From Terriglobia bacterium (GTDB lineage Bacteria; Acidobacteriota; Terriglobia; UBA7540), in NCBI GenBank assembly GCA_020073545.1, contig JAIQEZ010000035.1, positions 1 to 37,771 of the forward strand: 37,771 nt of DNA, given 5' to 3'. The position numbers and the translations under genes are program-made. The notes beneath the pieces are model-generated. The model ran no database searches. It was given only the letters and a program-made list of their open reading frames with translations, and had not been told where the DNA came from. Position 1 is the stretch's first letter, and every line of letters starts with the position of its first letter. Positions 6,812 to 31,390 of the stretch are shown here, one piece after another.

Positions 6812-7978
6812 TTACCCCAGCACGCCGGCCGCAAACAGATCGCTAAGGTTCACTTCCCCTTTCCATTCCTTAAGGGCCGGGTGCTGGTCGCCGGGCACGA
6901 TCTCGGTTCCTTCGGCGGTCCTGGTAAAACAGAGAAGATCCTCTGGCTTAGCCAAACTCAGCAGGATTGGCGAATGGCTCGCCATGAGCACCTGGTCGTC
7001 GTAGAGGGAGGACAGCGACTGGTAGATTGTCTCAACCGCGGTTGGGTGAACCGCGTTTTCCGGCTCCTCAATCAAGTAGACCTGGTTTGGCTCCGGCATA
7101 TACGCAAGGATGGTTAAGGCCAAGAGGCAAAGAGTGCCATCCGAAACGACCCGCGAGGGAACTTCGATTCCGTTTTGGTACTTGAGCTTGAGGTTTCGGG
7201 CTCTTCCTTGTGGCCATGGTTCGGTCCGGATGGTTTCAAGGTCAGGCAGAGCCGTACGGAGATGCCGCATCCAGGCCTCGAAGGACTCGCGAGACTCTTC
7301 CCGGAGTTCGAAAACGGATCGTGCGAGATTGGCGCCTGTTAACTTGCTTGCCTTCTCTGCCTCAAGCGTACTCGGCCCATGCAGGTCCTCGGTCCTCAGC
7401 CTGACGTCGCGGATTCCTTCGCGAAGCAAAGTGGCAAACCACCTGAGCGTCGGGAAGTCGGTCGGACCGGTCGGAAAGTAGTTGACCGCCGAATTGCCTG
7501 AAAGGATGTTCGTCCGAAGCTCGCCTCGCGAGCTATCTTCATGCACAAACACGACCCCCGTGTGAGTGCGATCCGCCAGGGTCCGTGTCTTCTCGTGGGC
7601 AGGATCGCGCAATACCACTTTTTCCTTGTCGATGACGGGAACCTCGGAGCGCGGGTCCAAGCGCACAGACAGGTCGTATCGCAGGTCTGTGTACGGAGCG
7701 GACTCGGTCGCGATGAGGTGGTCCTGCGCTATCTGCGCCTCAAGCGCCAAGTCAAAGCTAGTCTCTTCACGCCCCCAAACCAAGTCGTGAAAGTTGTCCG
7801 TTCGCTGGTTCACCGCGTACTGGACGGTATATGACACACAGTCTCGAAGGAAACCAAGCACGTCCATAAACGCCGTCTTACCGCTGCCGTTCGGCCCCAC
7901 GAGGATCTGAAAGGGGCGCAATGGCGCGGCCACTGACCGCAAGCATCGGTAATTTCTTGCCTCGACTCGCGTGATCAT
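6812..7978 (-). CDS. AAA (RecF/OLD-like) ATPase, first gene of a candidate defence operon
   Basis: The frame extends to 8212, but the ATG at 7978 follows GGAGG by six bases and gives the canonical N-terminus MITRVEARNYRCLRS; product 388 residues. Walker A is GPNGSGKT (28-35), the ABC-like signature region is SDGTLCLLAL, Walker B is YLIEEPENAVHP (301-312, Glu304 and Glu305), and the switch histidine is His335 in MASHSP. The C-terminal block HPALKEWKGEVNLSDLFAAGVLG fits the AAA_21/COG4637 group. Such ATPases, related to RecF, SMC and OLD, sense or act on nucleic acids or proteins and usually partner with a nuclease. Here the next two genes on the same strand encode a TOPRIM-like and an AlbA_2 protein. 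The specific activity and trigger are unknown. Confidence 0.88.
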   Translation of the reverse strand: MITRVEARNYRCLRSVAAPLRPFQILVGPNGSGKTAFMDVLGFLRDCVSYTVQYAVNQRTDNFHDLVWGREETSFDLALEAQIAQDHLIATESAPYTDLRYDLSVRLDPRSEVPVIDKEKVVLRDPAHEKTRTLADRTHTGVVFVHEDSSRGELRTNILSGNSAVNYFPTGPTDFPTLRWFATLLREGIRDVRLRTEDLHGPSTLEAEKASKLTGANLARSVFELREESRESFEAWMRHLRTALPDLETIRTEPWPQGRARNLKLKYQNGIEVPSRVVSDGTLCLLALTILAYMPEPNQVYLIEEPENAVHPTAVETIYQSLSSLYDDQVLMASHSPILLSLAKPEDLLCFTRTAEGTEIVPGDQHPALKEWKGEVNLSDLFAAGVLG

Positions 7979-8138
7979 CCTTGGCCTCCAACGTCCTCGG
8001 GCGTCAAGCAGATTGTATCCCAAGCGCGGTGTAGAGGGAATTCCCTTTCGCGCCTGGGGGCGAAGGTTCACGAGCGGCGTAGCCGCGGTCAGCGTTTCTC
8101 CTGACCGTGGCTTCTTCAGGTTTTCAGGCGCGGCGGAT

Positions 8139-8155
8139 ATATCGCGTCGCGATAT
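8139..8155. promoter_or_regulatory. Perfect 8+1+8 palindrome upstream of the defence operon (possible operator)
   Basis: ATATCGCG and CGCGATAT flank a single T. The site lies about 160 bases upstream of the ATPase start, where a promoter region for the minus-strand operon would be expected. The shape is that of a dimeric repressor site, but no regulator gene is adjacent apart from the small YgiT-like protein, and one palindrome alone is weak evidence. Confidence 0.35.
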
Positions 8156-8244
8156 GTTTCGGGAGTAAAGCCGCGCACGGCGGTTCCCCTCACCCCGGAA
8201 GACCAGTGACAAGTGGCGAGCGACGAGCGGAAGGGAACTGAAGC

Positions 8245-12884: not shown

Positions 12885-12975
12885 TATTGAGCGATTGGGT
12901 GATCGGGTCATTGAGTGATTGCCGGAAAACCGCGCGGTTTTCAATCACTCAATCGCTAAATCACTCAATGGCTCG
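12885..12975. repeat. Word-repeat inverted tract between atpD and atpC
   Basis: GAGCGATTGGGTGATCGGGTCATTGAGTGATTG-type words lie on the left, and reverse-complement words TCAATCACTCAATCGCTAAATCACTC lie on the right. The centre is a perfect 16-base palindrome AAAACCGCGCGGTTTT at 12926-12941. It can fold into a long hairpin in the operon message. Confidence 0.75.
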
Positions 12976-24774: not shown

Positions 24775-24895
24775 AGCGAGTTATTGAGTGATTTTGTGAT
24801 TGAGTGATTTGGCGATTGAAGGATTGAACCTCAGTTCGGCAACTAGCGCCCTTTCAGTGAGTCAATCGCCCGATCACTCAATCGCTCCATGAGGT
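24775..24895. repeat. Word-repeat inverted tract between lipB and the E2 gene
   Basis: GAGTTATTGAGTGATTTTGTGATTGAGTGATTTGGCGATTG on the left mirrors CAGTGAGTCAATCGCCCGATCACTCAATCGCTCC on the right. Same word family as the tracts at 12885 and 31277. The E2 gene starts a few bases later, with GAGG as its only visible ribosome-binding site. Confidence 0.7.
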
Positions 24896-27870: not shown

Positions 27871-30210
27871 CTAGTGCTTACTGCCTGCTATTTTCCGGGC
27901 GGGGCCGGTGAAGTGGACGACGGGTTCAAACGCCTTCTCCAGCGCTTCCCGGTAGGCTTCTACGTCGTAGCCCCTCCAGCCTTCCCACAAGGTCCAGGCG
28001 CGCACCCGATCGTCGATGAGCGCGGAGCCGGCGTCGGTGATGATGAATTCGATGTTTTCACCCGGCCGCAACTTCACGCCCGCCCGGTCCAGTTGCCGGG
28101 CGGCGATGGCCGTCACGCTGTTTTTCTGGTAGCTCGCGGGAGCGCGGGTAAGGCGCTTGCGGATGACCAGTTCTTCGGGCGCTACACTGCCGTCCCGGAG
28201 CCGTGCCAGGAACCTCTCGTAAACTTCCCGCGCCTCGCCGAGTTTGGCGCAGTAGGTCGGGAAATCATAAGCCTCAGCCAGAATGGCGAGCACCTCGCGC
28301 TGCATCCTGGCGATGAACGGCGGGGTATCATGCCGGCGGCATTCGAGCCCGCGCACCTTGAGCTCACCTGCTTCCGACACGCAGAAAAAGCGGTTGGGCA
28401 CGGGGATCTCAGCAGATTGCCTGGAGGGCAGGAAGACGACGTAGCGATAGACGGCCTCGAGCGCCAGGGGCAGGCCGGTGAGTCGCTCGATTTCCCGCGC
28501 CAGGAGTTCGTAGTCCGCGCGCGTCGCCTGCGGTGGAGGTAGGCCGTAGGGGCGACGCGCCGCGTCGCCCCTACATACGTAGAGCGAGTCCACGAGAGCG
28601 TGCAGCACGCGGAAGCCCCGCCGCTCCGCCGCCTCTTTCGCCACGAGCAATTTCTCCCGCGCCAGGGCATTGATGGCCTCGTGCGCTTCGATTTTGCCGA
28701 AGCGGGCGTTCTTGTAGCCGGTGTACCCGAAGCAACAAACCAGCAGCCACTTCAACACGCCGCGCCGGAGTTTATAAACCTCGGGGTTCGGGGTTCGGGG
28801 TTCGGGATTCGGGATGGGAGAGGGGAGATTTGCCGCAGGCCCCGCCCCCTGCATCCCGAAACCCGCCTGTGCAGGCAGGCCCGAATCCCGAGTCCCGAGT
28901 CCCGAACCCCGAATCTTGTACTGCTGTCGCTTGGCGATGAGCCGCTCCACGACCCGGCTGGTGATGCCTCGATACCGCTGGCAGATGCGGTAGCCGAGTT
29001 CCGGCACGCGCGGCGCCTGCGGGCAGCATGGGCAGTTGATCGTTTCCGGTGAGATGTTGAAGCGCGCCATGATGCTCGGAAACTCGCTCACGAAATCCAG
29101 TTCCGCTACGTTTTCAAAGAATCCGAGACGCGGGGAAAAAACCAGTCCGCCACGATCCGCCATCAACAACTCATCCGGATGCTTGAGACTTTCCGGCTCG
29201 GCCTTTTGCGCGGGAATCAACACTCCGTCCCGCCAAGCGACTTCCATCTGCATGTAAGAGATTCCCGTGCCCGGCGTCGTCCGGCAGGCGTATTGAACCG
29301 GCAATTTCGTTACCCGCACCAGTTCCCAGAGACCTTCGAGTTCGCTGTGCTCGGCGGTGAAAGAATTCTGCGTGTCAATGTGCAGCCGTCCGAACAAGGT
29401 CGTAGTGCTCTCTTTGAACAGGATGCGCCCATAGCTGGTGTAGCTGCGTGAGCGGCTTCTCTCCACAGGCAATTCATCGCGATTCAAGGGCAGGTGGATC
29501 TGGCGTCGCTGGGCTTGCCGGAGCAAACCCGGAAGTAGAACGGCATCGCCCCATTCCGTGACCAGGACGTCCGGGTCGTAGACCCGCAGCAGGCGCTCGA
29601 AAGTTACCGCTACCGGTTCGTCGGAATCATCGAGTACTTGCCAGTCATCCTCGATGGCTACCTCGACAGCGCCGTGTCTGCCGTGCCGAGGATTGACGTC
29701 GGAGAGCCCTTCCAGGCGAACCTGCATGGTGCGCACGGGCGGCCGTTCATACTCGGTAAGCCACTCGTCGTCCCGGCAGGTGATCGCCTGTATTTCGCCG
29801 GCGGCGTCTGCCTCGACCTCCACTTGCGCCAAGGGGAAAATTTTCTTTTCCCAGCAATACATCGGCGCGAGCATGAGGTCAGAGTCGTACAGAACCAGGC
29901 TGCTATCGAAGCGGCGGACGAATCGCGCGAGCGGCGAGAACAGCGTGGGATGGTGGGCCAAAACTTGCAGGACCCGGAGCGGCTGCCGGTCCCAGATGTT
30001 CTGCCTCTCCGCGAGCGTACAACCCACCGGAGCCCGGGCTTGGAGCGCTTCGGCCAGACGCGCGAGCTGTCTTTCCGGCCCGTGCACGTAGAAGCAAGGG
30101 CGAAAAGAGCCGTCAATCAGCCGGCGGCGCTTCTGGCCCGACTCGATAAGCCACAGGACCATCCCCTGCGGGCAGGGGTAAAGGTCGAGAATCCATCCAT
30201 TGAGTCTCAA
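27871..30210 (-). CDS. B-family DNA polymerase with degraded exonuclease motifs and repeat-derived insertions
   Basis: The 779-residue product starts at TTG 30210 (N-terminus RLNGWILDLYP is family-like). Motif A is LDFVSEFPSIMARFNISPET (Asp372), motif B lies in VLKWLLVCCFGYTGYKNARFG (486-505), and motif C is LHALVDSLYV with Asp541. The first acidic residue of the usual DTDS is replaced by valine. In the exonuclease region the D-x-E of ExoI is not evident, and the ExoII-like stretch DPDVLVTEWGDAVLLPGLL lacks the usual asparagine, so proofreading is probably absent. Residues about 434-477 are encoded by a word-repeat tract, and residues about 547-556 by a perfect palindrome. Together with upstream genes it may form a translesion or repair module; this is inference. 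Confidence 0.88.
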   Translation of the reverse strand: MRLNGWILDLYPCPQGMVLWLIESGQKRRRLIDGSFRPCFYVHGPERQLARLAEALQARAPVGCTLAERQNIWDRQPLRVLQVLAHHPTLFSPLARFVRRFDSSLVLYDSDLMLAPMYCWEKKIFPLAQVEVEADAAGEIQAITCRDDEWLTEYERPPVRTMQVRLEGLSDVNPRHGRHGAVEVAIEDDWQVLDDSDEPVAVTFERLLRVYDPDVLVTEWGDAVLLPGLLRQAQRRQIHLPLNRDELPVERSRSRSYTSYGRILFKESTTTLFGRLHIDTQNSFTAEHSELEGLWELVRVTKLPVQYACRTTPGTGISYMQMEVAWRDGVLIPAQKAEPESLKHPDELLMADRGGLVFSPRLGFFENVAELDFVSEFPSIMARFNISPETINCPCCPQAPRVPELGYRICQRYRGITSRVVERLIAKRQQYKIRGSGLGTRDSGLPAQAGFGMQGAGPAANLPSPIPNPEPRTPNPEVYKLRRGVLKWLLVCCFGYTGYKNARFGKIEAHEAINALAREKLLVAKEAAERRGFRVLHALVDSLYVCRGDAARRPYGLPPPQATRADYELLAREIERLTGLPLALEAVYRYVVFLPSRQSAEIPVPNRFFCVSEAGELKVRGLECRRHDTPPFIARMQREVLAILAEAYDFPTYCAKLGEAREVYERFLARLRDGSVAPEELVIRKRLTRAPASYQKNSVTAIAARQLDRAGVKLRPGENIEFIITDAGSALIDDRVRAWTLWEGWRGYDVEAYREALEKAFEPVVHFTGPARKIAGSKH
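28546..28574. repeat. Perfect palindrome inside the polymerase gene
   Basis: Two 14-base arms (GTAGGGGCGACGCG and its complement) flank one base. The 29-base unit encodes part of CRGDAARRPYG in the polymerase. Related GTAGGGGCG palindromes occur at 4478, 4522 and 34117. Confidence 0.8.
28782..28915. repeat. Word-repeat inverted tract in frame inside the polymerase gene
   Basis: CGGGGTTCGGGGTTCGGGATTCGGGAT words on the left are mirrored by CCCGAATCCCGAGTCCCGAGTCCCGAACCCC on the right, with a GCCTGTGCAGGC core. The tract encodes a Gly/Ser/Pro/Asn-rich loop (GSGLGTRDSGL ... PIPNPEPRTPNPE) between polymerase residues about 434 and 477, without breaking the frame. Confidence 0.85.
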
Positions 30211-31276: not shown

Positions 31277-31390
31277 GATCGGGTGATCCAAGTAATCTGG
31301 TGATTTGGCGATTTTGTGATTGAGCGATTGTCAGGACTCTTCTCGACTTTCAATCGCAATATCACCTAATCGCTAAATCGCTCAATGACT
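31277..31390. repeat. Word-repeat inverted tract upstream of surE (first of two)
   Basis: GATCGGGTGATCCAAGTAATCTGGTGATTTGGCGATTTTGTGATTGAGCGATTG is mirrored by TCAATCGCAATATCACCTAATCGCTAAATCGCTCAATGAC. Between 31216 and 31617 there is no gene; promoters for the divergent genes must lie in or between this tract and the next one. Confidence 0.7.

Follow-up and report, generated by a model that had tools for sequence, protein, structure and literature searches.

How does word-repeat DNA of a kind that lies mostly between genes come to be read within a DNA polymerase, and did it arrive there or arise in place? The question is raised by a stretch of 37,771 nucleotides from a Terriglobia bacterium (contig JAIQEZ010000035.1; the whole stretch is called the window below), for which a preliminary description had proposed that such a tract encodes about 44 extra residues of a polymerase, and had taken this as evidence of movement or de novo birth of such tracts. 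From the locus, the rest of the genome and the homologous genes, we consider it likely that permissive loops have time and again received dispersed heptamer-hairpin repeats, which are translated into disordered segments that the protein tolerates. The features of the gene, all on the minus strand of the window, are the following.

27871..30210, minus: family B DNA polymerase gene, archaeal type, 779 amino acids (open reading frame, profile matches, fold match)
29095..29097, minus: motif A aspartate D372 (DFVSEFPSI), upstream landmark, invariant in alignments A1 and A2
28780..28915, minus: heptamer-array hairpin, residues 433–477 (IRGSGLGTRDSGLPAQAGFGMQGAGPAANLPSPIPNPEPRTPNPE), in the putative fingers-tip loop S2 (TRF, fold, alignment, model)
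28880..28915, minus: 5' arm on the coding strand, GGGATTC-type words, read as GSGLGTRDSGL (TRF, period 7, 5.1 copies)
28781..28813, minus: 3' arm on the coding strand, GAATCCC/GAACCCC-type words, read as IPNPEPRTPNPE (TRF, period 7, 4.7 copies)
28726..28752, minus: motif B, K487 to G495 (KWLLVCCFGY), downstream landmark; K487, F494 and G495 invariant in A1 and A2
28528..28575, minus: second in-frame insert, residues 546–561, after motif C (S3), absent from most homologues
28546–28574, minus: REP-like palindrome GTAGGGGCGACGCG-n-CGCGTCGCCCCTAC inside the second insert (inverted-repeat search)

A heptamer hairpin within a conserved polymerase

The 779-residue product matches PF00136 (7e-17 in the profile search, split over two stretches) and NF004416 (7e-116, also over two stretches and under the curated cut-off), and the top PDB fold match of its model is KOD polymerase 4k8z (Foldseek, E 6e-40), related polymerases matching as well. 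Apart from its inserts, the gene evolves under purifying selection, with dN/dS values of 0.21 and 0.13 against two orthologues of the same genus (L026 and L024, respectively). At residues 536–541 (window 28588–28605), the polymerase family carries HALVDSLYV, as against the DTD motif of archaeal family B enzymes, and in the Acidobacteriota relatives a leucine takes the place of the first motif C aspartate. Elsewhere in the window (6812–8212, minus strand), a protein resembles the MADS3 AAA ATPase of an anti-phage system (NF047739, under the curated cut-off).

Two convergent arrays make the tract a hairpin rather than a simple run of words. Read on the plus strand, TCGGGGT/TCGGGAT units come first (TCGGGGT at 28781–28813, 96% matches in TRF) and their complements CCCGAAT/CCCGAGT come after (CCCGAAT at 28880–28915); together the two arrays make an inverted repeat with 33-nt arms, 88% complementary and separated by 66 nt, in a tract of 135 nt. 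Its lag-7 identity of 0.95 is reached by none of 300 shuffles, and the computed folding energy of the coding strand, −89.7 kcal/mol, is far better than that of shuffled sequences (z −6.6, 200 shuffles). The units present in 28780–28915 are GGGATTC, GGGACTC and GGGGTTC, with no GGGAATC unit on either strand of this interval; they vary differently in the two arms, and four G-runs with short spacers lie within the tract. Compared with Rfam, the tract reached the threshold of no RNA family, and three microRNA matches scoring far under theirs were discarded as chance matches to a hairpin.

As the preliminary description had noticed, the tract is in frame: it occupies codons 433–477 of the open reading frame without a stop, between motif A and motif B. 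The number of extra residues needs correction. About 45 residues are indeed coded by the tract, and the S2 region measures 82 residues versus 48 in insert-free homologues; the net gain is therefore 34, because some 11 linker residues have been replaced.

An AlphaFold2 model of the polymerase (68-sequence alignment, mean pLDDT 89.9) gives residues 440–470 a pLDDT below 50, between helices 416–437 and 476–497. We take this helix pair to be the fingers in KOD and related polymerases, and since these enzymes are the best PDB matches of the model, the loop, which is predicted to be disordered, would sit at the fingers tip. The idea of a repeat-origin loop in the fingers region is thus backed by sequence, alignment and model. 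The residues of the insert are barely conserved when it is aligned to that of L024 (pN 0.39, pS 0.52).

Heptamer tracts across the same genome

Period-7 tracts were searched for in a sample of 1.39 Mb of stretches from the same genome (5.28 Mb, 261 contigs), in which absolute counts are slightly biased, since some of the contigs were picked for holding tracts. At the stricter threshold, 89 tracts were detected, versus 7 at period 6, 11 at period 8 and a single period-7 tract in a Markov-simulated genome. Genome-wide, the word pair GGGATTCGGGATTC with at most two mismatches occurs 170 times, versus 17 for the reversed control. A looser threshold, with neighbouring arms merged, yielded 120 period-7 elements in the 1.39 Mb, and their placement relative to gene calls made with a hexamer model (93 intergenic, 14 over a gene end and 13 inside called genes) bears out the early remark that the same kind of tract lies elsewhere between genes, at least for the most part. 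Many intergenic elements, their arms convergent, fill nearly the whole gap, starting a few bases after one gene's stop codon and ending a few bases short of the next gene; dozens of different words are found among the tracts of the genome. The window also holds period-8 word arrays (12893–12973, 24779–24825 and 31298–31386), for example GATTGGGT and TCAATCAC, which are convergent.

Five of the 13 elements inside genes were judged to be real word tracts (polymerase, TGT, MetRS, Mfd (TRCF) and a DUF7948/SBBP protein); the other eight, on visual inspection, were discarded as weak period-7 signals within normal coding sequence, a choice that was not blind and that feeds the word-class comparison given below. 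Besides the polymerase, three enzymes of this genome carry in-frame tracts of the GGGATTC class in loops or linkers:

L180:2698-2737: TGT
L189:5751-5803: MetRS
L233:19089-19141: Mfd

With the intragenic set picked by eye in this way, the TCGGGNT class makes up four of five intragenic tracts versus 7 of 91 intergenic ones (Fisher p 5e-4). Stop-free frames alone do not set the two groups apart (5/5 intragenic, 72/91 intergenic; p 0.58). The word GGGATTC is stop-free on both strands; the words of 59 of 116 tracts, about half, are not.

Repeat-derived inserts recurring at the same loops of the polymerase

Homologues of the polymerase were drawn from the same family of genomes and from 80 loci of named assemblies (alignment of n = 100). 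Inserts of 12 residues or more occur almost only at residues 139 (S1), 438 (S2) and 550 (S3), with few elsewhere, and the S2 region, 47–53 residues long in insert-free homologues, reaches up to 119 in others. Heptamer arrays account for 17 of the 24 long inserts (lag-7 identity of at least 0.81, no shuffle being as high), and the remaining seven comprise four REP-like palindromes and three loops without repeat character (L101, L071 and L013), which were not counted as repeat-derived. Inserts of this kind are also present outside the Acidobacteriota, in Methylomirabilota (L075, S1) and Chloroflexi (L058, S3). The S2 insert of L017 is a heptamer hairpin with several more palindromes nested inside. 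Among relatives, in-frame tracts of the same class as the polymerase tract, read as the PNPESR type, were found in L301/L302, within an Lhr-like helicase (G018) and a membrane protein (G011), both named from the sequence and not by a family search.

The alignment thus contradicts the expectation that the loop would prove unique, since several relatives have other repeat-derived inserts at the same position. The loop of the window's gene itself, however, is found in no homologue that lacks repeat character.

With the insert columns left out, the tree forces at least four changes at S1, six at S2 and three at S3, counted from well-supported branches as gains or losses; at S2 the figure is at least four when two loops without repeat character are left out. 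L026, which belongs to the same genus and is 88% identical over the compared part, has no S2 insert and a linker of common length. In the window's gene, the ancestral linker of about 11 residues is gone, and does not flank the insert; no target duplication, as expected of a MITE, was seen around the S2 insert, where divergence could mask one. The insert core is partly common to the window's gene (P0001) and L024, so a single gain in their ancestor is possible; independent gains in the two were considered and dropped, given the shared core and the weakness of the branch that would separate them. In L077, compared with its close relative L043, a palindrome has been cleanly added to the loop.

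The second insert of the window's gene is of the palindromic kind. Its palindrome recurs without a mismatch at one other place in the genome, on contig C197, and begins with GTAG, yet this tag belongs to the perfect palindrome itself. As to the RAYT transposase criterion of GTAG REPs, nine Y1_Tnp-family matches are present in the genome.

The presence of inserts follows the repeat load of the genome. Among genomes of the same family (metagenome assemblies, where a public record title exists), all 10 with at least 13 GGGATTC pairs have a heptamer insert in the polymerase versus none of the nine with five or fewer (Fisher p 1.1e-5; 2.7–10.0 versus 0.2–1.5 pairs per Mb), in a test that ignores kinship and to which the polymerase inserts themselves contribute a few GGGATTC counts. 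Similarly, the length of the TGT loop before LFGIVQG increases with word count (Spearman 0.69, p 5e-4, 21 genomes, kinship ignored), and within one genus this loop measures 7 residues in G004 and 106 in G001.

Origin and fate of the loop

The account that we favour can be laid out as follows. The source would be a genome-wide class of convergent GGGATTC-like heptamer arrays that form a hairpin and normally reside in short intergenic gaps; one copy would have taken over the 11-residue linker at the fingers tip of the polymerase. The outcome would be a disordered loop of about 45 residues, rich in Gly, Pro, Ser and Arg, which should be transcribed and translated, since the tract is in frame and stop-free, and which would be retained because the loop is permissive and not because of a function; translation in vivo and neutrality are both presumed here. 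The word class fits a coding filter: both arms of a convergent array can be read through only when the word, as with GGGATTC, contains no stop on either strand. Across relatives, three loops (at the putative fingers tip, in the exonuclease-like domain and after motif C) have been filled repeatedly, with repeats of several classes and in line with the number of such repeats in the genome.

That the tract arrived by insertion of a dispersed element appears fairly probable. Local birth is the more serious alternative, possible though rather unlikely in our estimation: a chance heptamer seed in the permissive linker would have grown by slippage, and template switching at the replication fork would have made the inverted arm, nothing being inserted. 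Such an origin fits the different variation of the units in the two arms, and dozens of words in the tracts of the genome suit it better than they suit one mobile family. By contrast, the insert-free linker of L026 contains no heptamer seed (as judged by eye), and slippage alone does not produce inverted arms. The word class is moreover that of the dispersed tracts, with a presence that tracks genome load, some inserts are composite (palindromes nested in heptamer arms, as in S2 of L017), and the difference between L077 and L043 resembles a clean palindrome insertion. Local birth nonetheless gains from the lack of both a donor copy and a target duplication: a genome search turned up no near-identical donor, only a match of 77% over about 75 nt at best and otherwise short word matches. 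For this same reason transposition and local birth are not separated here, and the early suggestion that tracts move or arise de novo holds as far as recurrent gain is concerned (at S2, at least four repeat-derived changes, or six with all long loops) without distinguishing between the two.

A longer flexible fingers tip could also have been selected, for example for altered fidelity or partner binding, which we regard as improbable. REP-decorated genes have been suggested to be biased towards replication and repair (PMC3733652), the polymerase and Mfd are hit here, and long loops recur at the same site in several relatives. However, these loops differ between relatives in sequence, length and repeat class, the insert residues are barely conserved by the pN and pS values given above, nine repeat-poor relatives retain the polymerase without a heptamer insert, and MetRS and TGT, which have other jobs, are affected in the same way.

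Still less credible is the removal of the tract at the RNA level, or its skipping by the ribosome, with no loop made. The hairpin predicted in the mRNA is very stable, but the tract matches no Rfam family at threshold, and the inserts in intact polymerase open reading frames are in frame and stop-free, which would be needless if they were removed (frames broken by an insert would be missed as fragments). The intragenic bias to words stop-free on both strands points to translation.

Finally, an assembly artefact or a decayed gene can practically be dismissed: the assembly is fragmented (261 contigs), but many separately assembled genomes, some of other phyla, carry similar inserts at the same sites, and the gene shows purifying selection outside the inserts and intact motifs.

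Relation to known repeats

The closest precedent for insertion into genes is given by the Rickettsia palindromic elements (RPEs; Ogata 2000, 2002), palindromic repeats of approximately 100–150 bp described in reviews as lying both between genes and in frame in conserved housekeeping genes, with one host protein, Gmk, reported to be translated and active (PMC10969869, PMC2229807). With its 135 nt and 33-nt arms, 88% complementary, the tract is within the size criterion of RPE palindromes, and it too is found in frame in unrelated conserved genes, here those of the polymerase, TGT, MetRS and Mfd. It differs in that each RPE family shows a conserved sequence and peptide of its own, whereas here a convergent heptamer array of Acidobacteriota is involved, and in that several repeat classes keep turning up in the same loops. 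Strict membership fails, because no conserved family sequence was found. Intragenic GTAG/CGTC REPs (Di Nocera 2013) have likewise been described within replication, repair and tRNA enzyme genes of several bacteria, where flexible linkers or loops were proposed (PMC3733652); a REP-like palindrome (28546–28574) lies in the same polymerase gene, whereas the heptamer tract itself is not a REP.

As for the words, the GGGAATC/GGGNATC arrays of Xanthomonas and Nostoc (Rehm 2015) are G-rich heptamers, mostly intergenic and rare within open reading frames, and in Xanthomonas often form two convergent arrays that make an inverted repeat (PMC4692102). Our tracts share with them the tandem G-rich heptamers, two units or more, and the mostly intergenic location, but they are built on GGGATTC/GGGACTC and lack the GGGAATC unit that the class requires, so that strict membership of the GGGAATC class fails; repeat-built coding loops are, in the portion available, not described for the Xanthomonas and Nostoc arrays. 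G-quadruplex formation in vitro is a further criterion of that class, and what the sequence of the polymerase tract offers in this respect is its four G-runs with short spacers. The TAACTGA direct repeats of Beggiatoaceae (MacGregor 2015) are intergenic heptamers, a minority of which lie in open reading frames, in the orientation that lacks stops, including one in an RNA polymerase beta prime-like gene (PMC4679880). They differ from the polymerase tract in consisting of one word, in direct and not inverted arrays, with copies in open reading frames mostly near protein ends. A literature search for heptamer repeats in Acidobacteria found none.

The polymerase case joins two known kinds: heptamer arrays act as a coding element, recurrently at the same loops and following genome load. 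A bolder generalization, which we hold to be doubtful, would see convergent heptamer hairpins as a repeat class that is actively generated, by some novel way of writing DNA, and that in several phyla keeps entering the same permissive loops of enzymes for replication, repair and tRNA, so supplying essential genes steadily with new disordered segments.

Non-coding repeat DNA would thus repeatedly become protein at the same sites, with the gene unbroken, in enzymes that cells can seldom lose. A single system may in this way address two questions, namely how heptamer arrays spread or arise and where in a protein a loop can accept random peptide. The record of inserts maps candidate permissive sites of a family B polymerase (the fingers tip, the exonuclease-like domain and the position after motif C), and could be useful to polymerase engineers.
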